Source: Geobacter sp. DSM 9736 (lineage in GTDB: Bacteria > Desulfobacterota > Desulfuromonadia > Geobacterales > Geobacteraceae). From it: a DNA stretch of 64,000 nucleotides. Of the stretch, positions 1 to 12,521 are shown in pieces; position 1 is the first letter of the stretch, and the number at the start of each line of letters is the position of its first letter. Location of the stretch: positions 3,100,753 through 3,164,752 of the forward strand of contig NZ_LT896716.1 in assembly GCF_900187405.1 (NCBI RefSeq), in the 5' to 3' direction. The position numbers were made by a program, and so were the translations under genes. The notes under the pieces are model-generated. The model saw only the letters and a program-made list of their open reading frames with translations. It did no database searches and had not been told where the DNA came from.

Positions 1-3000
1 GGTTTCTTCCCGCAGCTCCGTTGATAGTCCCGTTATCGGATGCGGTGCCCGCGTGACAGGCATTGCAGGTGAGGTTCGGGTTGGTGCTGTACGTGTTTAT
101 GTGTATGGTATGCGCCGCTGACCACGTCGGTACGGCATCTCCGGCTTTGCTGTGGCAAACGCCGCAGTTGCCGGCGGTCTTCAAGCCGTTCCATGTGGCA
201 GCCGCGTTGGCCGAGCCTTCTGTCGCGCCGTCCCTGGAATGGCAGAGCGTCAGGCAGGTGCCGTTGGTGTAGGTGAATCCGCGCGGGTCGGTCAACGATC
301 CTCCTCCCGCGGTGTATTGTGCCGGGGTCAGTCTCGTTCCGTTGATCTCCGCGGTTCTGGAGGCGCTTACGGGACCGCTCGCATGGGATGCGGTAGGATG
401 GCATGTGCGGCAGCCGAAGACATACGCTGTTGCGGTATGGGCATTCCCTCCGGTAATAACCGTAGGGGCGGTTGCGCTGTCGAAGTGGAGCGCATGTCCC
501 GACGGAAAACCTCCGGTGGCGCCGGACAATTCACCTCCGTTGCTTGCGTCGTGGCATGACTCACAGGTCGCATTGCCCCCCCAGGCGGGTGATGTCTGTG
601 TGCTGCCATGGCAGTAAGTTGCGGAGCATTTTTGGGTAGCGCTGTCGTATACACCTGAAAAGGTCGTGAAGGCTGAGATGGCTGCCAGGTTGACGTCATG
701 AGTCTGATTCGTATGCTTTGCGGACCCGGCGACGATTGCTGTGCCGGTGATGGTGGTAGTCCGATGGCAGCGGGCACAGTCGGCTGCGGAGGCGACGTGG
801 ACGGCGTGGCTGTCGGGGGCGGAATTGTCCGGCGTGCCGAACGCGTTGCCGGTACCGTGGCAACCGTTGCAGCCTAACGTCGTGACGCTGCTCCACGCTG
901 GCGGGTTTACGAATATTCCTTTCCCGTTGCTGTGGCAGTAGACATTGGTGCAGTTCTCCCCGCCGGAGTTCCAGGTGCCTGATGGAAGCATATCTACGTC
1001 TTTGACTCCGTCCACATGCGCGACTCCCGATATCGTGCGGTCGTTGCCTGAGGCCACCGTCGCGGCGTGGCAGGTGCCGCAATCATAGTTTTTTCCTAAA
1101 ACGGCTGCATTGTTGACATGGGCCTGGTGCCGCCCCTGGACGATCGGAACGGTAGAAGATGCGTTGTTGCCATGACACCAGGTACAGTCTGCTTTCGGGT
1201 TGGCGGCACCCCATGCAGGGGTCGCCGAACCATGACAGTAAACGCTGCATGTGCCGTATGATGAGCTGGGAGCCAGGTTGCCGGTTGCGCCGGTCCGGGC
1301 GCCACGGTATCGTGCGGAGCTGCCGAATCGCGGGTCGGTGGAGTCGAGAGACCAGGTCACGCTGCCGTTTACATGGGCATTGTCGGTAATGTTCGTGTGA
1401 CACGCGGCACAGGCAAGGCCGAGGTTGCCGCCTCCCGTCCCGGCATGATGCACATGGCTTCCGCCGGGGGGCGGGCTTGCGCCGGTTGCGCCGTGACAGG
1501 CTCCGCAGGCTGCCTGGGAGGCTCCTCCGAGCCAGGAGGGCGCCGGCACTGACCCTCCCGCAAGGGTGGTCCCATGGCAATAGACGCTGCAGGTAGCCGC
1601 GCCCGGCGCGGTGGCTATGATCGTTCCCGGTGAAGAAGCACGCCAGGTGTAGCCTGTGAGGGAGTCGGTGCCGGTGAAAGTGCCTGCAGAGACACTACCC
1701 CCGAAACCCGGAAACGTCTGGCTGTTGATGGCGAAGCCGATTTCGATGCGGGTGTCACCCATCTGGGTGGCGGTGAATCCGCTGTGGCAGGCCTCACAGT
1801 TCATGGTCCGGATGTTTACATGGGCCGGATGCGCGCCGGGGCCGGCCGGCACGCCCCCCAGCGCACCCGTGGATGGCTGGGCAAGTCCGGCACCCCCGCC
1901 GATTGCCGCGGTGGCCGGCGGGTAGCCGTGGCACAGGGCGCATCCGCCGCCGGAGAAGGAGCCCTCTTCATTGTCATGGGTATGGCACTCGTTGCATACC
2001 TGCGGATTCCCGGTGGTGTCATTGTGCTGCGGCGGGTAGTATTTTCCTTTGCCGGCGTGGAAGCCCGCAGGTGGCACCGGATGGCACCCCTGGCACACGC
2101 CGCTGCCGTCGGCGCTCTTGTAGTTTCGCCCGGCACCAGTCATCTGGAAGAAGGTCCTCCCGGCGCTGTTCCGGTTGTCGATTTTCCCGAACTGGGTGGA
2201 GATGTTCATGAAGCGCCTGATAAGGAAGACGTTGGGAACCCGCTCCTGTGCGCCGGCTGCGAAAGGATCGTGTTCCACATGGGCGCCGTGGCAGTCGATG
2301 CATTGAATGTTCTGCCCGTTGCCGTCATGGGCAAACCTTCCGGCATGACAGTTCGTACAGATGTTGACGTTGCCTGACGTCTTGCCGCGCCTGTCGGTCC
2401 TCAGAAGAAATCCATCCGCCGGTTTAAGGGAAAGATAGCTGGAATATCCGTCGTAGGTGGCGCTGTTGGAATCGGTGTAATGGACTCCGTGACAGGTGGT
2501 GCATTGCACCCTTCCGTTCTTGAGTTTCAATGCCGAGGTCGGGTTGGCCGGATTGGCGTTCACGGGAGTCGCATGCTTGGGCTTGGCGCTGGAATACCTG
2601 ACATTGACAGGGTGGGTGCCGGCGACGTGAGTCGATCTGTCCCTTGAGCGGTGACAGTCGAGGCACATCTGGTCGCCGTCGTTGCCCATGCGGAGGAATG
2701 GTCTTGCGCTGTTGGAGTGAGGGCTGTGGCACCTTACGCATGCCATGGAGCCATTCGTCCTCCCCCGCAGATCCAGCCTCGTCATCGCCTCATGCTGGGG
2801 CGGCTGCGCACCCGCAGCCGGAACGGTGTCTGAGCCGTCCCACCTGTGCGAGATCTGGTAGCGGGTGCCCGGGAGGAATGCGGTGTAGACTCCGAACGGA
2901 TCGGCGGCGTCGGAGGGGACATGCGGCTTCGCCTTGCCCTTGGGCACTCCCGGTTTGTGGCAATCCAGGCATATGTTGTTATAGCCGGTGGTGCCGAGGG

Positions 3001-3139
3001 TGTTGTGGCTTACGTGGCAGTTGCTGCAGGAATAGCCATTACCTGGATCATGGACAGGATCGAGGACGACCGCCGATGCCGCTGCGGGAAGAAGCAGCAA
3101 CAGGGTGATGCCGAGTTTCTGAAAAAACGATCCGCGCAT
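1..3139 (-). CDS. Large multiheme c-type cytochrome, 3' end outside window
   Basis: Open in one frame from the ATG at 3139 to the left edge (1046 codons, no stop), so the C-terminus is missing. A signal peptide (MRGSFFQKLGITLLLLLPAAASA) precedes the first heme motif CSNCH. I counted 21 in-frame CXXCH motifs (for example CLDCH, CTTCH, CQGCH, CNECH, CGVCH) plus five wider motifs: CSVYCH twice, CLTLCH, CTNVYCH and CSATYCH. Mixed CX3-4CH and CXXCH spacing is typical of the Geobacter CxxxxCH/CXXCH repeat family of periplasmic or outer-surface cytochromes. Expected role is electron transfer at or beyond the outer membrane. It follows the lipoprotein gene by 18 bp, so it is probably the third gene of an operon. 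The Shine-Dalgarno is weak (GGGA). Shorter frames on both strands here are shadows. Confidence 0.93.
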   Translation of the reverse strand, partial: MRGSFFQKLGITLLLLLPAAASAVVLDPVHDPGNGYSCSNCHVSHNTLGTTGYNNICLDCHKPGVPKGKAKPHVPSDAADPFGVYTAFLPGTRYQISHRWDGSDTVPAAGAQPPQHEAMTRLDLRGRTNGSMACVRCHSPHSNSARPFLRMGNDGDQMCLDCHRSRDRSTHVAGTHPVNVRYSSAKPKHATPVNANPANPTSALKLKNGRVQCTTCHGVHYTDSNSATYDGYSSYLSLKPADGFLLRTDRRGKTSGNVNICTNCHAGRFAHDGNGQNIQCIDCHGAHVEHDPFAAGAQERVPNVFLIRRFMNISTQFGKIDNRNSAGRTFFQMTGAGRNYKSADGSGVCQGCHPVPPAGFHAGKGKYYPPQHNDTTGNPQVCNECHTHDNEEGSFSGGGCALCHGYPPATAAIGGGAGLAQPSTGALGGVPAGPGAHPAHVNIRTMNCEACHSGFTATQMGDTRIEIGFAINSQTFPGFGGSVSAGTFTGTDSLTGYTWRASSPGTIIATAPGAATCSVYCHGTTLAGGSVPAPSWLGGASQAACGACHGATGASPPPGGSHVHHAGTGGGNLGLACAACHTNITDNAHVNGSVTWSLDSTDPRFGSSARYRGARTGATGNLAPSSSYGTCSVYCHGSATPAWGAANPKADCTWCHGNNASSTVPIVQGRHQAHVNNAAVLGKNYDCGTCHAATVASGNDRTISGVAHVDGVKDVDMLPSGTWNSGGENCTNVYCHSNGKGIFVNPPAWSSVTTLGCNGCHGTGNAFGTPDNSAPDSHAVHVASAADCARCHRTTTITGTAIVAGSAKHTNQTHDVNLAAISAFTTFSGVYDSATQKCSATYCHGSTQTSPAWGGNATCESCHDASNGGELSGATGGFPSGHALHFDSATAPTVITGGNAHTATAYVFGCRTCHPTASHASGPVSASRTAEINGTRLTPAQYTAGGGSLTDPRGFTYTNGTCLTLCHSRDGATEGSANAAATWNGLKTAGNCGVCHSKAGDAVPTWSAAHTIHINTYSTNPNLTCNACHAGTASDNGTINGAAGRN

Positions 3140-3157
3140 GGTTTCCCGGTGTAATGA

Positions 3158-3658
3158 TCACAGGCCTGTTACTGTCAGGGTAGGTTTTGTGGCTGCCGTC
3201 AGGTCAACCGTATTGCCGTTATCGATACTGTTTGCTGTGAAGTCTGGAGGATCATAGCGCAGAACAAAATCGCCCGCTGAGAGAGACGCACCCGCAGCAA
3301 CCGTACAGGTGATCTGGGCAAAGTCGCCGAGACCGACTCCCTCGTCACTAACTTTGATCGCAAGTATCCTTAATCGCCTATCGGACTCAGAGTAGATGGC
3401 CTGGACGCCGTCCAGGGCCTTCAGTTGGGATGCTTCAGCGGGCACGGTTACCCCTGCAGGGATTATCACTGTTTCTACGACCCCATATATCGGCACAGAG
3501 TTCAAAGGCGCGGTGTTCGTTATTCCGAAGGTCAGCGTAACTGTTTTTGTGGCTGGTCCAGGGCCGCCACCACTTCCACCGCTTTCTCCACCGCCTCCAC
3601 AGCCGGCGAGCATAACCGTGATAGCGAAAAATAGCAGGTTGAGCTTGACAGATTTCAT
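3158..3658 (-). CDS. Small lipoprotein with cohesin-like domain
   Basis: A 166-residue protein with a lipoprotein signal (lipobox LAGC, Cys20) followed by a Gly/Ser linker (GGGGESGGSGGG). The rest is one beta-rich domain. Its second half (Gly-Asp-Phe-Ala followed by a strand, then FVLRYDPPDF, then a D-x-G-N-x-V-x-L strand) resembles the end of cohesin-type beta sandwiches. The cohesin reading is my inference from pattern and context, not a database match. It sits between an NHL protein with a dockerin-like C-terminus (25 bp upstream) and the multiheme cytochrome (18 bp downstream), so all three are probably co-transcribed. A surface anchor for the neighbouring dockerin-like protein is a reasonable hypothesis. 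AAGGAAG precedes the ATG at good spacing. Confidence 0.8.
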   Translation of the reverse strand: MKSVKLNLLFFAITVMLAGCGGGGESGGSGGGPGPATKTVTLTFGITNTAPLNSVPIYGVVETVIIPAGVTVPAEASQLKALDGVQAIYSESDRRLRILAIKVSDEGVGLGDFAQITCTVAAGASLSAGDFVLRYDPPDFTANSIDNGNTVDLTAATKPTLTVTGL

Positions 3659-3683
3659 AGCGTCTTCCTTTGCCGCTGCGGTT

Positions 3684-6335
3684 TTACCACGACAGGCCGA
3701 CCACCCTTCTCATGATGAGGATAGTGTCGTTGATATCGATCACCCCGTCTGGTTGAGGCACATGGTTTCGCAGCGGCGCCACATCGCCCCTGAGAATATC
3801 TCCAAAGGTTGCCGTATCTACTCCAGCCGCGAAGCGAAGTGCCTTTATGGCGTCAACGAGATTCACCGTCCCGTCCCCGTCCAGGTCCCCCCCCTGGGTC
3901 GTATTTCCCGCGGGGTCGGCCGGGGATATGCTGAGGGTGCCCCGGTCATAGGCTACGCCTGAAAGATCGACGCTCCACGTGCCGTCGTTTCCGATCGTCA
4001 CTATACCGATCGGGCCGCTTCGGTCCTTCACCACCAGGGTTGCGCCGGGCTCAAGCGTGCCGCTCATCCGCACCGGATTCGGAGAATCGACCGGGTCGAT
4101 GGTGAATCTGGGTGGTGTCACGTCGAGGTAAACCGTACGGCTGCTGGTGCTTACGGTGCCTACTGCATCGATGGCGGTAACGGTTATGAGATAGGTTCCC
4201 TCGGCAGCAAGGTCGGTGGTGAAGTTGTAGGTTCCGTTGCTGAAGGTAACGGGGACGGTGGTCCCATTGACCGTACTCACCAGAGTGACACCGTCAGCAG
4301 GCGCGGTCCCGCTGACAGCAAGCTTCCTGTTGTTGGTGGCTCCGTCCTCGGCAGGAGATGTCATTGCCAGTTGGAGGCCGGCGGGATTGAAGGTGGCCGT
4401 GCGCTTGGCCGTAGTTGTTTTTCCTCCGTAGGCCTCGGAAACAACGAAGGTGTTGATTCCGGGGGAGAGGCTAACTGTCGCGGCCCAGTTTCCGTCGGAG
4501 CTTACGGGAACAGAATTGCCGTTGATCAGGAGCGTGGATGTCTTTTCCGCAGTTCCGCTCAATGTTGTCGTGTTGGTTGTGGTAATGAAGCCGTCGGGAG
4601 AGGTCACCTTCAATCCTGCCTGACGCGTGGCGTCGAAATGCAGGGTCCTGGCTGCCGTGGTCGAGTTGCCGGCTGCATCCGTGGCTACCACAGTAATGAC
4701 ATTCGGCCCGTGCACAAGGGTGACGGGAGCGCTGAAGAAGCCGTTGGTTACCATGACTGGTTCGCCGTTAAGGGTTACCGACCGGAGCATCGGGCTGCCG
4801 ATGTTGCCTGTGACATTCTGTACCTGGTGTGCGGCCGTGCTTCCGTCGGGAAGCATCGATAGTGTCATCGAAGGGGCGACGGTTTGCAGTTCGATATTGA
4901 GAGTTATGGAGGAATCTCTTTTCCCTCCGACTCCGGCAGTTATGGTCAAGCTGTTGACACCCTCTGTCAGCGTTGCCGTATAGCTCCATGCGGTTCCGAC
5001 GACGGTTGCGGCTGTTCCGTTAACTTTGACGCTCCCCCCTGCATCAACCGTACCTGCAAGGACCTGGATGGCCTGATTCGTCGGTGTCGCTACCGGGTTC
5101 ACCGTAAGCTGTGTCGATGTCGCATCCCGAACCACGATGGCCGTTCTGGCCGTTGAGTTTCCTGCACCGTCGGCAGCGCTTATGGAGATCGCATTCACGC
5201 CGATTGCCAGGGGCACTGAAGTGCTCCATGCAGTGCCGGTAACGGTGGCGGGGACATTGTTCACTTTGACCGTTGCACCGGCTGTAACCGTTCCGCTCAC
5301 GGCAAGGACTGCCAGGTTGGTGTACGCCGGTATCGGGTTGACGGTGAGGGCGGGGCCGACAGAATTTGTGGGGGTAATGACCCCTCTGTCGATGGAATAA
5401 AATGCAAGGTTTCCCCTCCCGTTGAGAACCGCCAGACGTTTATTCTGAGGGTCGAACTGATCGAACAGGAGATCGGAAGGGTTGGCCAGTTTTCCGGTAC
5501 CTATGCCGTAGCTGCCGATGTAGCTGAGAAATGTGCCGTTATCCGCTGGATCTATGGCCTGGACAAGCCCCTGGAAAGAATCCAGGACATACGCCCTCGA
5601 CAGGGTGGATTTGCTGTACTCGAATGCGATGGCTTGGGGTGCCGTAAACCTGAGGGGGCCGGAACCGAAAGAGCCGATAGACTTTCTGAAATCGCCATTA
5701 GTAGTGAAAAACTGGATGCGGCCGTTCCTCGTGTCCACCACTGCCAGTTGGTTGGATGTTCTTTCGTATGTAATGCCTGTCGGCGTCACGAACTGTCCGT
5801 AGGCGCTTCCAAAGCTCCCGAAGCTGTTCGCGGGTTTCCCGGGGGATGAGAAGAAGACGGTAGCCGGAGAGCCGGCAGGGGTAAACACCTGCACGCAATT
5901 ATCGAGGCTATCCACTACGTAGATGTAGCCGGCATCGTCCACCGCGACGCCGTTCGCCATTCTGAACTGCCCTGCACCGATGCCCAGCCTGGTTACTTCC
6001 ACACCGGTGTTACCGTCGATGATTGCGGCAAAGTCTCCCTGAGTTACCACCAGCCTGGCATCTGCCGTCACTGCAATGCCTTGAGGAGGTTTTGGTGTAG
6101 GGACTATCTTGAGGAGACGCCCCGTATGGCTTATTTTCAGAATCCCCCCCTGCCGTGGATCGGTAACATAGAAATTTCCGGCAGAATCGGTGGCCATTCT
6201 TACAGGCGTACTCAGCCCTTCGCTGGTCGAAGCGAGTACGGCTACCTCCGGCGGCAAGGCCGCAAAGGCGACCGAAGCCGATGTAATCATGGCAGCAAGT
6301 ATGGAAAATACGAGCTTCAAGGCCCGTGTGCTCAT
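3684..6335 (-). CDS. Secreted NHL-repeat / Ig-like repeat protein with dockerin-like C-terminus
   Basis: An 883-residue protein. The open frame extends to 6497, but the start at 6335 (MSTRALKLVFSILAAM) is preferred because it has GAGG upstream and begins a clean signal peptide ending SVAFA. After it come NHL-type beta-propeller repeats (roughly residues 30-330; motifs such as YVVDSLDNCVQVF and AVVDTRNGRIQFF). About six Ig-like repeats of 75-90 residues follow, with recurring V-x-G-T-V-x-A-G and G-x-N-x-I-x-V motifs. The last 70 residues look like a dockerin type I module: a clear Ca loop (DLDGDGTVNLVDAIKAL) and a more degenerate second one (DGVIDINDTILIMRRVVGL). It probably acts outside the cell as a binding or scaffold protein. 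First gene of the lipoprotein-cytochrome operon. Confidence 0.87.
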   Translation of the reverse strand: MSTRALKLVFSILAAMITSASVAFAALPPEVAVLASTSEGLSTPVRMATDSAGNFYVTDPRQGGILKISHTGRLLKIVPTPKPPQGIAVTADARLVVTQGDFAAIIDGNTGVEVTRLGIGAGQFRMANGVAVDDAGYIYVVDSLDNCVQVFTPAGSPATVFFSSPGKPANSFGSFGSAYGQFVTPTGITYERTSNQLAVVDTRNGRIQFFTTNGDFRKSIGSFGSGPLRFTAPQAIAFEYSKSTLSRAYVLDSFQGLVQAIDPADNGTFLSYIGSYGIGTGKLANPSDLLFDQFDPQNKRLAVLNGRGNLAFYSIDRGVITPTNSVGPALTVNPIPAYTNLAVLAVSGTVTAGATVKVNNVPATVTGTAWSTSVPLAIGVNAISISAADGAGNSTARTAIVVRDATSTQLTVNPVATPTNQAIQVLAGTVDAGGSVKVNGTAATVVGTAWSYTATLTEGVNSLTITAGVGGKRDSSITLNIELQTVAPSMTLSMLPDGSTAAHQVQNVTGNIGSPMLRSVTLNGEPVMVTNGFFSAPVTLVHGPNVITVVATDAAGNSTTAARTLHFDATRQAGLKVTSPDGFITTTNTTTLSGTAEKTSTLLINGNSVPVSSDGNWAATVSLSPGINTFVVSEAYGGKTTTAKRTATFNPAGLQLAMTSPAEDGATNNRKLAVSGTAPADGVTLVSTVNGTTVPVTFSNGTYNFTTDLAAEGTYLITVTAIDAVGTVSTSSRTVYLDVTPPRFTIDPVDSPNPVRMSGTLEPGATLVVKDRSGPIGIVTIGNDGTWSVDLSGVAYDRGTLSISPADPAGNTTQGGDLDGDGTVNLVDAIKALRFAAGVDTATFGDILRGDVAPLRNHVPQPDGVIDINDTILIMRRVVGLSW

Positions 6336-6634: not shown

Positions 6635-7918
6635 ATGAGACAGCTTTTGCTTGCCATTTTTATAACCCTGCTGGTGATCATTTCCGGCCGAAGCTCCTAT
6701 GCCGAAGAGGCAGGGGGCGAGGAGTTGCAGCGACTCGTGGCTGCCGCTCTTGCAAACAACCCCGAGATTACCGTTTCGGAGGCGCGATGGAAGATGTTCA
6801 CCAGCCGGGTCGCCCAGGCCAAGTCCCTGGAAGACCCGATGCTGATGCTAAAGATACAGAACGGCATCGTAAGGGACCCATTCAATTTCAGCAGGGATCC
6901 CATGACGCAGAAGGTCATCGGCATCTCGCAGCAGCTGCCGTTCTGGGGGAAGAGAGACCTGAAGGCGGAGGTGGCGGCTAAAGAGGCTGAATCGTACCGC
7001 TGGCAGGTTGAGGAAAGAAAGCTTGAACTCGCCAGGATGGTTAAGGAAACTTACTGGCAGATCTACTTCATCGACCGTTCGTTGCAGGTTACCGAGAAAA
7101 ATCTCCGGATCATGGATGACTTCATCGCGCTGGCAGAAACGAGATATTCCGTCGGCCAGGGAGGGCAGCAGGATGTGCTGAAGGCCCAGGTCGAAAAGTC
7201 CAAGATGCTCGACATGAAGATCAGCCAGGAGCAGCAGCGGAAAAGTCTTGTAGCCGCACTTAACACTCTTATCGCCAGGGCGGCGGATACCCCAGTGGGA
7301 AGGATCGCGGATCCCGCTTTGAACCCCGTGGAGCTAACAGCCGGTGACCTGAATCGGCTGGCTGCGGAAAAAAGGCCTCAGTTCAGAAGCCTGGCCGCAC
7401 AGATAGAGAAGGGGCGTGCGGTTCACCGTCTTGCGGAGAAGGAATCGTATCCCGACGTTAACCTGTCGCTGGAATACATGCAGCGAAATCCGAGCATGGA
7501 GGATGAAGGGCTCGACATGTATTCAGCGGGGATTACCATCAATCTTCCCGTGTTTCGCGAACGGCGGCAAGCCATGCGGGCAGAGTCGACCTCTGAAGTA
7601 TCGATGGCCGCCGCTGAATTGAGGACGCTGGAGAATTCGGTCGGTGGGGGCATTGCGGACCTTCTTGCCCAGTTGGAGCGGCGGCGGAAGCTCGCCGAGC
7701 TATACAGGGCGGGTATCATCCCGCAGGCTGAGCAGGCGCTTGAATCGTCGGTCATCGGTTACCGGGTGGGGAAAGCCGACGTACTCATGCTGCTCGACAG
7801 CAGGGTTACGCTGTTCAATTACGAGCGTGAATATTACGATTCGGTCGCCGATTACCAGATGAAGCTGGCGCAGCTTGAGGCCCTGGTGGGGCAGGAGCTT
7901 GACCCGGAGAAGCAGTAG
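6635..7918 (+). CDS. Outer membrane efflux protein, TolC/CusC family
   Basis: A 427-residue protein with a signal peptide (about residues 1-23) and the two long alpha-helical repeats of the outer membrane efflux protein family (rich in Ala/Glu/Lys/Arg, for example AAKEAESYRWQVEERKLELAR). A typical early motif is QQLPFWGKRDLKAEVA. No lipobox Cys is present, unlike E. coli CusC. It forms the outer membrane channel of the tripartite pump encoded with the two downstream genes. A strong AAGGAG lies before the ATG. The gap to the adaptor gene is about 40 bp. First gene of the efflux operon. Confidence 0.93.
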   Translation: MRQLLLAIFITLLVIISGRSSYAEEAGGEELQRLVAAALANNPEITVSEARWKMFTSRVAQAKSLEDPMLMLKIQNGIVRDPFNFSRDPMTQKVIGISQQLPFWGKRDLKAEVAAKEAESYRWQVEERKLELARMVKETYWQIYFIDRSLQVTEKNLRIMDDFIALAETRYSVGQGGQQDVLKAQVEKSKMLDMKISQEQQRKSLVAALNTLIARAADTPVGRIADPALNPVELTAGDLNRLAAEKRPQFRSLAAQIEKGRAVHRLAEKESYPDVNLSLEYMQRNPSMEDEGLDMYSAGITINLPVFRERRQAMRAESTSEVSMAAAELRTLENSVGGGIADLLAQLERRRKLAELYRAGIIPQAEQALESSVIGYRVGKADVLMLLDSRVTLFNYEREYYDSVADYQMKLAQLEALVGQELDPEKQ

Positions 7919-7957
7919 GTTCCAGAGATTTTCACCGAGAGGTTTAAAAGGATGAAC

Positions 7958-9310
7958 ATGAAACGAAAGATAGTCATTCCGGTCGTGCTGGTCACGCTTT
8001 TAGCCCTGGGCGGGGGAGGTTACTACCTGTGGCAGGAGCTGGGGCACGATCATGACGAGCAGAAAGAAAAAGGTGTGGCGGCATCGGCCCAGTACACATG
8101 TCCGATGCATCCTTTCATCGTCAAGGAGCAGCCGGGCGTCTGCCCCATTTGCAACATGTCTCTCGTAAAGAAGGTGGAGGGGGCGCAGGCAGATGAGAAG
8201 GCCTTGGCTGCGTTGGGACAGGTGGCGCTATCTCCGACCCAGATGGTGATGAGTAACGTAGCGATGGTCGAGGTCAAGGCGGTCCGTCTCGACAGGGAGA
8301 TGAATGCCGTCGGCATCGTACAGTACGACCAGCGCCGTCAGGCGAAGGTCACGGCTTGGGTGGCCGGAAGGATCGACAGGCTCCTGGTCAACGCGGTGGG
8401 AGATTACGTCACAAAGAACAAGCCCGTGGCGCAGCTTTACTCTCCTGACCTGGTGGCAGCGCAGCAGGAATACCTTCTGGCTTTGAGGAGCAGGGACAGG
8501 CTGAAGGATTCTCCTGTAGCATCCATCTCGCAGGGGGGGGCGGGGCTTGTCGCCTCTGCGCGGCAGCGGCTGCTGCTTCTTGGTGTGAAGGAGTGGCAGC
8601 TTGCCGCACTGGAGAAGGGTGGAGAGCCCAACCTGAAGCTGCCGGTCTACACCCCCCTCTCCGGCATCGTCATAGAGAAGATGGTCGTGGAGGGGCAGTA
8701 CGTGAATGTGGGAGATCCGCTCTTTTCCATAGCAGATCTGTCGACGGTGTGGGTAGAAGCAGAGGTTTACGAGAACGAGTTCGCTGCGGTCAGGATCGGA
8801 CAGCGGGTGGAGGTAATCTCCCAGTCGTATCCGGGAAAGACATTTTCAGGCCGGGTCTCGTTCATCTACCCTTTCCTTGATCCCAAGACGCGGACCGTGA
8901 AGGTGAGGGTGGAAATACCGAATCCGGGATTGAAGATGAAGCCGGACATGTTCGTTACCGCCAGGATAAAGGCCCCACTGGATTCCGTACTTGCGGTGCC
9001 GGTTGCAGCGGTGATCGATACGGGAAAACGGCAGGTCGCGTGGGTTGAGGCGAAGCCGGGGGTTTTCGAGCCCAGGGACGTCAAAGTGGGTGCAAAGAGC
9101 GGTGGGTTCGTGCAGATTCTCGACGGGCTGAGGCCGGGGGAGAAGGTGGCTGCAAGCGGCGGTTACCTGATCGATTCCGAAGCCCAGCTGCGCGGTGGTT
9201 CGACCCAGGACCACAGCCAGCACGGTGGTTCGGCACCGGCGGGACAGGGCTCGGCGCCGGCGCGCCCTGCCCGGGAGGATATGAACATGGATGATATGGA
9301 CATGAAGTGA
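7958..9310 (+). CDS. cusB: RND efflux periplasmic adaptor, CusB-type, with heavy-metal-binding domain
   Basis: A 450-residue membrane fusion protein. Two ATGs lie six bases apart (7952, 7958). The second is favoured because AAGG falls at useful spacing only for it. The N-terminus is a signal anchor (residues 3-23), then a short heavy-metal-binding module (YTCPMHPFIVKEQPG... then CPICNMSL) typical of CusB-like proteins. Barrel-sandwich and beta-barrel domains follow (VNVGDPLFSIADLSTVWVEA, PFLDPKTRTVKVR). The C-terminal tail is Met/His/Asp-rich (DHSQHGG ... MNMDDMDMK) and could bind Cu(I) or Ag(I). It links the inner-membrane pump to the outer channel. Confidence 0.94.
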   Translation: MKRKIVIPVVLVTLLALGGGGYYLWQELGHDHDEQKEKGVAASAQYTCPMHPFIVKEQPGVCPICNMSLVKKVEGAQADEKALAALGQVALSPTQMVMSNVAMVEVKAVRLDREMNAVGIVQYDQRRQAKVTAWVAGRIDRLLVNAVGDYVTKNKPVAQLYSPDLVAAQQEYLLALRSRDRLKDSPVASISQGGAGLVASARQRLLLLGVKEWQLAALEKGGEPNLKLPVYTPLSGIVIEKMVVEGQYVNVGDPLFSIADLSTVWVEAEVYENEFAAVRIGQRVEVISQSYPGKTFSGRVSFIYPFLDPKTRTVKVRVEIPNPGLKMKPDMFVTARIKAPLDSVLAVPVAAVIDTGKRQVAWVEAKPGVFEPRDVKVGAKSGGFVQILDGLRPGEKVAASGGYLIDSEAQLRGGSTQDHSQHGGSAPAGQGSAPARPAREDMNMDDMDMK

Positions 9311-9386
9311 AAGGATCAGGCTCCGCGTTGTTAGTGGAGGCAGCCGCCGTCGGCTAGCCGCGCCCCAACTCTCTCTCAGGTTATTT

Positions 9387-12300
9387 ATGATCGAAAAGAT
9401 AATCGAATACTCAGCACGAAACAGGGCCGTAATCCTGATGATCTACGGGCTCGTCATCGCCTGGGGGGTCTGGGCGGTCTACAGGACTCCTGTCGATGCC
9501 ATTCCGGACCTGTCGGACAACCAGGTCATAGTCTTCACCGAATACCCCGGCAGATCCCCCCAGATAGTGGAGGACCAGGTAACGTATCCGCTGGTCACCA
9601 ACCTTCAGGGGCTCCCGAAGGTGAAGGCGGTGCGGGCATCTTCGGCTTTCGGATTCTCGATGATCTACGTCATCTTCGAGGACTCCGCCGACATCTACTG
9701 GGCGCGGACCAGAGTCCTGGAGCGGCTTAACTACGCTTCGTCACTGCTCCCGCCGGGTGTTTCGCCAACCCTCGGCCCCGACGGCACCGGCGTGGGCCAC
9801 GTTTTCTGGTACACGGTGGAGGGGAAGGGATATGACCTGGAGCAGCTGCGGACTCTCCAGGACTGGTTCGTCCGCTACCAGCTCAGCACCGTCCCTGGTG
9901 TTGCGGAGGTCGCCTCCATCGGCGGTTTCGTGCGGGAGTACCAGATCGAGTTGGACCCGCACCGGCTTTTCTCTTACAACGTGACCACCACCCAGGTCGC
10001 TGAGGCGGTGAAGAAGGCGAACAACGATACCGGCGGGAGGCTCCTTGAGCAGGCTTCCGCAGAGTATCTCATCAGGGGCCGGGGATATGTACAGTCGCTG
10101 GCGGACCTGGAAAACATAGTCGTTACCTCCATGGGAGGCGTACCCATATACGTGAAGAACCTGGGGACGGTGCAGACCGGCGGCGCAATCCGGCGTGGCC
10201 TCCTGGACCTCAACGGCACGGGGGAGGCCGTGGGGGGTATCGTAGTCATGCGGTACGGCCAGAACGCCAAGGAAGTAATCGACCGGGTGAAGGAAAAGAT
10301 AGCAGCTCTGGAGAAGGGGCTGCCGCCGGGGGTCAGGATAGGTGTGGCCTACGACAGGAGTGACCTCATCGAGCGGGCCGTAGGAACGCTTCGGGGTGCC
10401 CTGACCGAGATGTCCATCGTAGTGACGCTTGTAGTGGTTGTATTCCTGCTCCACTTCCGTTCTTCCCTTGTGGTTGTTCTCACTCTTCCGGTGGCGATGC
10501 TCATTGCATTCATCACCATGAAGCATCTCGGCATCACGTCCAACATCATGTCCCTGGGGGGAATCGCCATCGCCATCGGAGAGCTGGTGGACGCCGGGGT
10601 CGTGATGGTCGAGAACTGCTACCGGCGGCTGTCGGAACTCTCCGACGAGGAGCGGGAGCGCCGGCGCCTGGATGTCATCATCGATGCTTCCAAGCAGGTG
10701 GGGCCGGCTATATTTTCATCGATGCTCGTGATCATCCTTTCCTTCGTCCCGATCTTCCTTCTGGAGGGGCGCGGCGGGAAGCTGTTCCATCCCCTTGCGT
10801 TCACCAAGACTTTCGCCATGGTTGCGGCGGCGGTAATTGCGGTGACCCTCGTACCGGTGCTTTCCTATTTCTTCCTGAGAGGAAAGATGCCATCCGAAGA
10901 GGCGAACCCTGTCTCCAGATTCTTCATCAGGCTCTACTCGCCGGTACTTACCTGGTGCCTTAACTGGAAAAAATCGGTAATAGCCATCAACATCGTTGCG
11001 CTCGCGATAGCGATCCCCATATTCGTCAAGATGGGGAGCGAGTTCATGCCACCCCTCGACGAGGGAAGTCTCCTGTATATGCCGGTCACACTCCCGAACA
11101 TCTCCATTACGGAGGCAAAGCGGCTGATCCAGGTGCAGGACGCCGTCATCAAGAGCCATCCGGAAGTGGAATCGGTCCTGGGGAAGGTTGGGCGCGCGGA
11201 GACATCTACCGACCCGGCTCCGGTCTCCATGTTCGAGTCGATCATCATCCTGAAGCCAAAGGAGCAGTGGCGGCCCGGGGTTACCAAGGACGACATCGTT
11301 TCGGAGCTTGACGCAAAGCTCCAGCAGATCGGCGTCCGCAACGGCTGGACCCAGCCGATCATCAACCGGATCGACATGCTTTCCACCGGCGTACGCACGA
11401 CGCTGGGACTCAAGATATTCGGCAGCGATCTTGAGGTTCTTCGCAAACTTTCCCTTCAGGCGGAAGAGATCATCAAGGGGGTCCCAGGTGCGGTGGACGT
11501 GGTCGCGGAAAGGGTCACCGGCGGGAATTACATCGACATCGAAGTAGACCGGGAAGCGGCTGCCCGCTACGGCGTATCGGTGGCGGACATCCAGGAAGTG
11601 ATCTCCACCGCCCTCGGCGGAGAGACTCTCAGTACAGCGGTGGAAGGGCGAAACCGCTTCCCCATCCGCATACGTTACCAGCGGGAGTACAGGGACTCTG
11701 TGGAGGACATCCGCCGCATCCTCGTCTCCGGCATGGGGGGGGCGCAGATCCCGCTCGCTCAGGTGACGAAGCTCAAGGTTTCCACCGGCGCCCCTGAGCT
11801 TGCCAGTGAGGGGGGGCTCCTGCGTTCGATTGTCTTTCTCAATGTGCGCGGCAGGGACATGGGAGCGGTCATGAAGGATGCGAAGGCAGTTCTCGAGCAG
11901 AACCTGAAGCTTCCTCCAGGGTACTACTATGCGTGGGCCGGCCAGTGGGAAGACCAGATCAAGGTAAAAAAACGCCTGCAGGTGCTTCTCCCGATCGGGC
12001 TGCTCGTCATATTCATCATCCTTTACTTCACCTTCCGCTCCGGGATAGAGGCCTTGATGGTCATGCTCTCGGTGCCTTTCGCCCTTGTGGGAGGGGTTTA
12101 CCTTGTGGCGGGCCTTGGTTACAACATGTCCGTTGCAGTCTGGGTGGGGTTCATAGCCTTGTATGGAGTTGCCGTTGAAACGGGGGTGGTGATGGTTGTC
12201 TACCTCCACGAGGCGCTCGACAAGCGGCTTCTGGCAGGGCCTGTAACGGAGAAGGACATTTATGAGGCCGCTTTCGAGGGGGCGGTGCTTCGCCTGCGCC

Positions 12301-12521
12301 CCAAACTGATGACGGTGGCGACATCGCTCATCGGTCTCATTCCCCTCATGTGGGCGACCGGTACCGGTTCCGACGTCATGAAGCCGATCGCTGCACCGAT
12401 GATCGGTGGAATGTTTTCCTCGACGGTCCATGTGCTGATCATGACGCCGGTTATATTCGTACTGATGAAGGTGCATGATTTGAGGAAAGGGAAGCTCAAG
12501 CACTCCGGCATGTCCGGATGA
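9387..12521 (+). CDS. cusA: Heavy-metal efflux RND transporter, CusA/CzcA family
   Basis: A 1044-residue inner-membrane proton antiporter of the HME-RND subfamily, about the usual length. It starts MIEKIIEYSARNR, a classic opening. TM4 carries the proton-relay motif AIGELVDAGVVMVEN (Asp about 402). The C-terminal half has GAVLRLRPKLMTVAT, the HME-RND signature. From memory of E. coli CusA, two of the three substrate-binding Met positions appear kept (in APVSMFES and NRIDMLST), while the third (LPGM in CusA) reads LPNI here. Cu(I)/Ag(I) is the likeliest substrate, also given the Met/His-rich neighbours, but Zn/Co/Ni cannot be excluded. It sits 76 bp after the adaptor gene. Confidence 0.95.
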   Translation: MIEKIIEYSARNRAVILMIYGLVIAWGVWAVYRTPVDAIPDLSDNQVIVFTEYPGRSPQIVEDQVTYPLVTNLQGLPKVKAVRASSAFGFSMIYVIFEDSADIYWARTRVLERLNYASSLLPPGVSPTLGPDGTGVGHVFWYTVEGKGYDLEQLRTLQDWFVRYQLSTVPGVAEVASIGGFVREYQIELDPHRLFSYNVTTTQVAEAVKKANNDTGGRLLEQASAEYLIRGRGYVQSLADLENIVVTSMGGVPIYVKNLGTVQTGGAIRRGLLDLNGTGEAVGGIVVMRYGQNAKEVIDRVKEKIAALEKGLPPGVRIGVAYDRSDLIERAVGTLRGALTEMSIVVTLVVVVFLLHFRSSLVVVLTLPVAMLIAFITMKHLGITSNIMSLGGIAIAIGELVDAGVVMVENCYRRLSELSDEERERRRLDVIIDASKQVGPAIFSSMLVIILSFVPIFLLEGRGGKLFHPLAFTKTFAMVAAAVIAVTLVPVLSYFFLRGKMPSEEANPVSRFFIRLYSPVLTWCLNWKKSVIAINIVALAIAIPIFVKMGSEFMPPLDEGSLLYMPVTLPNISITEAKRLIQVQDAVIKSHPEVESVLGKVGRAETSTDPAPVSMFESIIILKPKEQWRPGVTKDDIVSELDAKLQQIGVRNGWTQPIINRIDMLSTGVRTTLGLKIFGSDLEVLRKLSLQAEEIIKGVPGAVDVVAERVTGGNYIDIEVDREAAARYGVSVADIQEVISTALGGETLSTAVEGRNRFPIRIRYQREYRDSVEDIRRILVSGMGGAQIPLAQVTKLKVSTGAPELASEGGLLRSIVFLNVRGRDMGAVMKDAKAVLEQNLKLPPGYYYAWAGQWEDQIKVKKRLQVLLPIGLLVIFIILYFTFRSGIEALMVMLSVPFALVGGVYLVAGLGYNMSVAVWVGFIALYGVAVETGVVMVVYLHEALDKRLLAGPVTEKDIYEAAFEGAVLRLRPKLMTVATSLIGLIPLMWATGTGSDVMKPIAAPMIGGMFSSTVHVLIMTPVIFVLMKVHDLRKGKLKHSGMSG

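Follow-up and report, generated by a model that had tools for sequence, protein, structure and literature searches.

A predicted cohesin lipoprotein encoded beside dockerin-bearing secreted proteins in Geobacter and its relatives

What unites a secreted propeller protein, a small lipoprotein and a giant multiheme cytochrome in one tight row of genes? The question arises at one end of the 64,000-nucleotide stretch of the Geobacter sp. DSM 9736 genome that we analysed (hereafter the window; contig NZ_LT896716.1, positions 3,100,753 to 3,164,752). An earlier sequence-only reading had described three co-directional genes here and proposed that a cohesin-like lipoprotein (P0001) could anchor an NHL/Ig protein with a dockerin-like end (P0002) at the outer surface and hold the cytochrome (P0004) in a complex for extracellular electron transfer. 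The positions (Table 1) and the intergenic gaps are exactly as it gave them, i.e. 25 bp between the NHL and lipoprotein genes (3659-3683) and 18 bp between the lipoprotein and cytochrome genes (3140-3157).

Table 1. Positions of the genes and domains discussed, numbered within the window
Feature	Position	Strand	Basis
Secreted NHL-propeller/Ig-like protein with C-terminal dockerin (P0002, 883 aa)	3684..6335	-	ORF, Pfam
NHL-type propeller region, P0002 residues 26-340 (boundaries chosen by us)	5316..6260	-	NHL repeats
Dockerin-like module, last 72 residues of P0002	3687..3902	-	AF2 model, VIA, profile
Lipoprotein P0001, 166 aa, lipobox LAG|CGGGG	3158..3658	-	ORF
Cohesin-fold domain of P0001, residues 37-166	3161..3550	-	AF2 model, VIA
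Giant multiheme cytochrome P0004, first 1046 of 1578 aa (rest beyond the window)	1..3139	-	ORF, Pfam

Beyond the window, the strand that encodes P0004 continues with another giant cytochrome (2519 aa), then with ResB and a CcsB-like protein. Because 17 bp separate the second cytochrome gene from the ResB gene and the ResB and CcsB-like genes overlap by 4 bp, the six genes from NHL to CcsB-like likely form one operon, as predicted from gene order. The recognised genes are those for the NHL protein, the lipoprotein, two cytochromes, ResB and the CcsB-like protein; a 444-aa protein further on has no family match. The ResB and CcsB-like heme-attachment pair (L277:10439-12621, in the window's genome) adjoins the second cytochrome on the same strand, and its place behind the giant cytochromes suggests a dedicated maturation system. 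On the other side, a divergent gene set begins ~300 bp from the NHL gene; from their translations we take its ORFs (window 6635-12521) to be TolC-type, membrane-fusion and RND pump genes, by their look for metal efflux.

We modelled P0001 with AlphaFold2 (AF2), using 22 homologues from named records. The model has a mean pLDDT of 83.1 and a pTM of 0.73, with 93 of 166 residues at pLDDT >=90; its low-confidence part, residues 1-30, comprises the signal peptide and a linker, and ten-residue block means lie between 76 and 96 from residue 31 onward. Foldseek placed a cohesin first (4uyp_A, probability 0.99, E 6e-3), another cohesin second and YcnI copper proteins third and fourth, with no match at E<=1e-3. 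VIA-align re-scored Foldseek's candidates, and all 50 rows shown are cohesin modules (Z 10.0-6.9, 101-123 residues, 2.3-4.0 A, 8-17% identity), among them 2o4e, whose title does not say so. The best row is 2jh2_C (Z 10.0, 2.3 A, 106 aligned residues), and the alignments span P0001 from residues 33-37 to 160-166. By this comparison the modelled domain has the beta-sandwich of the cohesin fold superfamily, and the model holds one cohesin only.

Sequence searches were silent or misleading on this point: phmmer and profile searches with the lipoprotein sequence matched no cohesin among solved structures, and the sub-threshold PF00963 alignment of P0001 (17.9 vs 24.1 bits, residues 111-158 on model positions 13-60) is in a register that differs from that of the fold comparison. 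A case for a cohesin from sequence alone was dropped, and the structure model decided. Since P0001 falls below the PF00963 cut-off and one of 19 lipoprotein family members matches PF00963 at E<=1, we do not file it under that family; as modelled, it is a cohesin by fold, in agreement with the earlier description of its beta domain. It might instead be that the fold reflects a general beta-sandwich resemblance and that the lipoprotein has another role, e.g. metal binding. The low identity to cohesins in the VIA rows, the lack of any Pfam call above cut-off and the third rank of YcnI in Foldseek would fit this, but we hold it very improbable, for the VIA rows contain nothing other than cohesins, up to the best Z, and the lipoprotein genes lie beside dockerins far above chance, as counted below.

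P0002 contains NHL repeats (PF01436, E 3.3e-12), five Glucodextran_B stretches, which we take to be Ig-like modules, and Big_6 and Big_13 domains, and its propeller region matches NHL structures such as TRIM71. Its last 72 residues are modelled by AF2 at a pLDDT of 93.6, with helices at 15-25, 33-39 and 57-67, and all 33 VIA rows are dockerin or cohesin-dockerin structures, the best being 2ccl_B (Z 10.0, 1.5 A over 62 residues, 31% identity). The module has the two loop-helix repeats and the length of about 60-70 residues that define the type I dockerin fold. The dockerin family profile (A2) matches the solved dockerins 5m2o_B (E 7e-4) and 1ohz_B (E 3e-3), and its alignment to the latter shows a short insertion in the second loop of the P0002 dockerin. 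Three Asp residues are invariant in 32 dockerin-module sequences; if they occupy loop positions 12, 1 and 12, as we presume, the pattern fits predicted calcium loops of a type I dockerin. The P0002 module itself is below the Dockerin_1 cut-off (PF00404; E 0.24, 12.1 vs 22.9 bits), and 17 of 32 family members match PF00404 at E<=1 (best 1.7e-6). The dockerin match ends <=8 residues from the host's C-terminus in 90/90 paired hosts. Model, fold comparison and profile thus bear out the double loop reported at the end of P0002, which is a type I dockerin by predicted fold.

We then compared the occurrence of the two modules across genomes. A profile of 19 lipoprotein domains, run over 141 genomes of the order Geobacterales, finds the lipoprotein family in 87 of them, with up to 15 matches per genome. 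In a phylum sample of 395 genomes, with scoring limited to ten candidates in each, eight match, five inside the order and three outside (best E 4.2e-8). A lipoprotein gene was counted as paired if it lies <1.5 kb behind a dockerin-like C-terminus on the same strand. In ten genomes picked among lipoprotein carriers, 45 of 58 lipoprotein genes are paired, where random placement would give 0.095; three genes farther from a dockerin (two at 1.7 kb, one at 2.1 kb) are scored as unpaired here. The dockerin profile was built from neighbours of lipoprotein matches, which bears on the co-occurrence counts too, and all ten genomes were chosen from lipoprotein carriers, so that the pairing count is not fully independent. 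The window's genome has all five of its lipoproteins paired and five of its ten dockerins; over the ten genomes, 33 of 78 dockerins are without a profile-matched lipoprotein.

A larger survey covered 121 loci, i.e. the 120 top-ranked among the lipoprotein matches listed plus the window's own, with one contig-edge row skipped and a 50-aa edge fragment (L117_13) dropped. In it, 90 of 126 lipoprotein ORFs are paired, 35 are unpaired and one lies at an edge, with loci of close relatives counted separately; none of the unpaired ORFs has a dockerin <=1.5 kb downstream instead. One unpaired case, L072, is paired as the same gene in the ten-genome count, and we suspect a spurious first domain match. 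Each of L146, L148, L149 and L155 has two cohesin-like lipoprotein ORFs close together. At the genome level, a dockerin is present in 87/87 lipoprotein carriers, the lipoprotein is present in 0/39 dockerin-free genomes and 15 genomes have a dockerin only (Fisher 9e-23 over 141 genomes, kinship ignored). The two folds, the gene pairing and this co-occurrence across the order are all computed results.

Among the exceptions, one genus (g6) accounts for 16 of the 35 unpaired lipoproteins, at loci that also hold what we take to be a methionine adenosyltransferase motif; in 12 genomes of this genus a dockerin lies ~40-45 kb from the lipoprotein among the matches listed, and no cohesin-profile lipoprotein stands behind either of the two such dockerins inspected (L253 and L254). 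Genus g6 therefore looks like a split cohesin-dockerin pair and, as the split is confined to one genus, perhaps reflects one event. Inspection of 24 of the 33 unpaired dockerins found three that precede lipoproteins matching the cohesin profile weakly and three that precede large cytochromes. At six loci (L249, L263, L264, L219, L223 and L232) a giant cytochrome comes directly after the dockerin host and no cohesin lipoprotein was found in between, and a dockerin subtype (GDIGPL..PNG.ID) is common to L219, L223, L232 and L264.

The proteins that carry the dockerin are varied. Among ten hosts scanned with Pfam, no family occurs in more than three; their domains include a DUF5122 propeller, Lcl_C, several Ig-like families and Cu-oxidase_2, and one host has no match. 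The Cu-oxidase_2 domain is above cut-off (E 6e-8) in the host at L062:5534-10162, which from its sequence is a possible surface-anchored multicopper oxidase. For the multicopper protein of G. sulfurreducens, an atypical type II system is said to be the route of secretion (Mehta 2006).

We also asked how the pair relates to the giant cytochromes. The whole P0004 gene encodes 31 CXXCH, 3 CX3CH and 5 CX4CH motifs; its part in the window has 21 CXXCH, 3 CX3CH and 2 CX4CH, i.e. precisely the 26 heme motifs given as a minimum by the sequence-only reading, with more beyond the window. The second giant cytochrome has 34 CXXCH and 12 CX4CH motifs. P0004 matches Cytochrome_C7, GSu_C4xC__C2xCH and TIGR01904 and has no solved relative at E<=1e-3, and over its N-terminal 400-odd residues it shares 40-52% identity with 20 other loci. 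When named genomes were scanned, 104 cytochrome relatives came up, of which 80 were kept and 75, with >=1.5 kb of upstream sequence, were usable as loci; the hosts belong to Geobacter, Geomonas, Geomesophilobacter, Geomobilimonas, Pelotalea, Citrifermentans and others. Both dockerin and lipoprotein are present at 22 of these loci, a dockerin only at 13, neither at 40 and a lipoprotein alone at none, where L190 (lipoprotein missed by the profile) and L220 (lipoprotein truncated to 98 aa) are scored as without lipoprotein; 53 of the 75 thus have no full pair. Conversely, a multiheme ORF (>=4 CXXCH) starts <=1.5 kb downstream of only 21 of 127 lipoprotein ORFs; seven of the 127 have <1.5 kb of downstream sequence. 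A constant cytochrome partner was rejected on these two counts (21/127 ORFs; 40/75 loci with neither module). The recurrent unit is therefore the cohesin lipoprotein and dockerin pair rather than the trio: the synteny of all three genes holds at the 22 loci but fails as a constant arrangement, and the cytochrome link is real but optional.

At 58 of the 75 cytochrome loci there is an NHL propeller gene <=4.5 kb upstream, so that propeller and cytochrome tend to stay together. Of these 58 loci, 21 have both modules, 13 a dockerin only, 24 neither and none a lipoprotein only (Fisher 2.8e-7). On the propeller tree the lipoprotein trait requires six changes and the dockerin trait five; a two-trait test on this tree has too few independent events (2 and 1 pairs on starred branches, not significant), so that few independent events stand behind the joint presence of the two modules inside the cytochrome operon. 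In 11 both-module loci examined, an 8- or 9-heme cytochrome ORF precedes the NHL gene in nine and a 5-heme one in six, and one or two further large cytochromes lie behind the first in seven. Propeller and cytochrome appear to form the core and the cohesin-dockerin pair to be an accessory; over the 75 loci the lipoprotein never occurs without a dockerin, and the dockerin does occur without it.

These counts bear on what the pair does for the cytochromes. It is possible, if somewhat unlikely, that the two modules bind each other and the cytochromes are unrelated, the NHL/Ig protein being a general adhesin or matrix protein that happens to share the operon. The rarity of a multiheme ORF just downstream of the lipoprotein and the many cytochrome loci with neither module agree with this, but the upstream propeller gene at most cytochrome loci and the ResB/CcsB-like genes that then follow in the window's genome argue against it. 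The earlier suggestion that the cytochrome itself is held gains no support from these data; the dockerin-bearing protein, whatever its kind, is the likelier cargo.

A further cohesin in the same genome raises the question of where the pair would act. A PilQ/GspD-like secretin (866 aa, L004:4278-6878) has a proline/alanine-rich linker followed by a C-terminal PF00963 cohesin (G000:C1:725473-725787, above cut-off at E 6.5e-9). Outer-membrane lipoproteins commonly face the periplasm, and P0001 could likewise be a cohesin seated in the inner leaflet of the outer membrane and facing the periplasm. There it would act as a dedicated sorting receptor, not a surface anchor, taking up its dockerin-tagged partner ahead of export and passing it to a secretion machine. 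This usual orientation, the cohesin-tipped secretin and the presence of PF00963 in 98 of 102 dockerin genomes, as against 21 of 39 dockerin-free ones, speak for such a role. We consider it decidedly unlikely nonetheless: PF00963 proteins in those 21 dockerin-free genomes cannot exist only for these dockerins, and a strict dependence of the secretin cohesin on them was rejected; only the match in the window's genome is confirmed as a secretin; and nothing puts either cohesin in an export path. Overall, 119 of the 141 genomes have a PF00963 match, among the matches listed mostly in ORFs of about 800-900 aa. A 148-aa protein (L005:5528-5974) has a sub-threshold PF00963 match and adjoins an ORF that looks to us like a diheme peroxidase.

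In the surface-anchor reading, which we favour as probable, a lipid-anchored cohesin holds a dockerin-tagged scaffold at the cell surface; its main rivals are the unrelated cytochrome role and the periplasmic sorting role. The following steps are proposed: (i) P0001 would be a single-module cohesin tethered by lipid to the outer membrane, with a lipobox, identified by eye, whose Gly at +2 we take to be compatible with outer-membrane sorting; (ii) its cohesin would bind the C-terminal dockerin of the protein encoded next to it; (iii) this binding would keep the secreted scaffold (i.e. NHL propeller and Ig array) at the cell surface; and (iv) the propeller and Ig array would organise the giant cytochromes of the same operon. 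The binding, the outer-leaflet location and the cytochrome contact are what we infer. As the scaffold is made with two giant cytochromes and a ResB/CcsB pair, it probably positions extracellular cytochromes in this operon.

Both folds and the C-terminal position of the dockerin are shared with the type I cohesin-dockerin system of the Clostridium thermocellum cellulosome (1ohz/2ccl; OlpA, 3ul4), in which the surface protein OlpA has just one cohesin. By contrast, the Geobacter cohesin has a lipid anchor in a Gram-negative cell and its gene lies directly behind that of its partner, the dockerin has its loop 2 insertion and the modules fall below Pfam cut-offs. The Pfam matches of P0001, P0002, the first 1046 aa of P0004 and ten dockerin hosts name no CBM or catalytic glycoside-hydrolase domain; with a single cohesin in P0001 besides, identity with a cellulosome was rejected. 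The best VIA match, 2jh2_C, belongs to the cohesin-like modules of Clostridium perfringens (2jh2, 2w1n, 2vo8; NagJ/NagH 2ozn), which are not from a cellulosome; by their entry titles the 2w1n and 2vo8 modules are on glycoside hydrolases, whereas the cohesin here is a free lipoprotein. Peer et al. (2009) are said to have described non-cellulosomal cohesins and dockerins.

Closer in physiology, cohesin/dockerin modules, adjacent in one case, are reported in syntrophic sulfate-reducing partners of ANME archaea (PMC10553843), cohesin and dockerin proteins are reported in ANME archaea themselves (PMC9012536), and a role in the syntrophic partnership is proposed there. These are likewise organisms that exchange electrons between cells; their modules were found with standard domain libraries, and the available portions of the two papers describe no lipoprotein cohesin in a giant-cytochrome operon. 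The Geobacter conduits OmbB-OmaB-OmcB and ExtABCD likewise combine multiheme cytochromes with accessory outer-membrane proteins, as far as the available part of their description goes (PMC12307469); compared with them, the present operon has no porin recognised among its genes, a cohesin-dockerin pair and cytochromes of 1578 and 2519 aa. The claim that no such system had been described therefore needs narrowing: cohesin and dockerin modules as such were already on record in sulfate reducers and ANME archaea, at least in the portions available, and the pairing of a lipoprotein cohesin with dockerin hosts in this order is in no paper found among the matches listed, which include few subscription journals and were assessed from titles, term frequencies and the first lines of abstracts.

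In brief, a plug-and-socket pair of this kind offers a concrete and testable way in which electron-exporting bacteria may keep large secreted proteins on the cell surface. For many lipoprotein genes without a Pfam name, of which a single genome has up to 15 by profile, the pairing points to likely partners, and Gram-negative cohesin-dockerin pairs are a supply for surface display or electrode work. We also put forward, tentatively and as a rather doubtful extension, that the dockerin is an address tag used throughout the order, that the tagged extracellular proteins are received by a set of lipid-anchored cohesins, each with its gene next to that of its client, and that the cohesin-tipped secretin perhaps aids their export. 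If so, a code overlooked by standard profiles would direct clients such as propeller scaffolds, a multicopper oxidase and Ig arrays, and Geobacter-type cells would assemble surface machines that are modular and addressable, including electron conduits of giant cytochromes.
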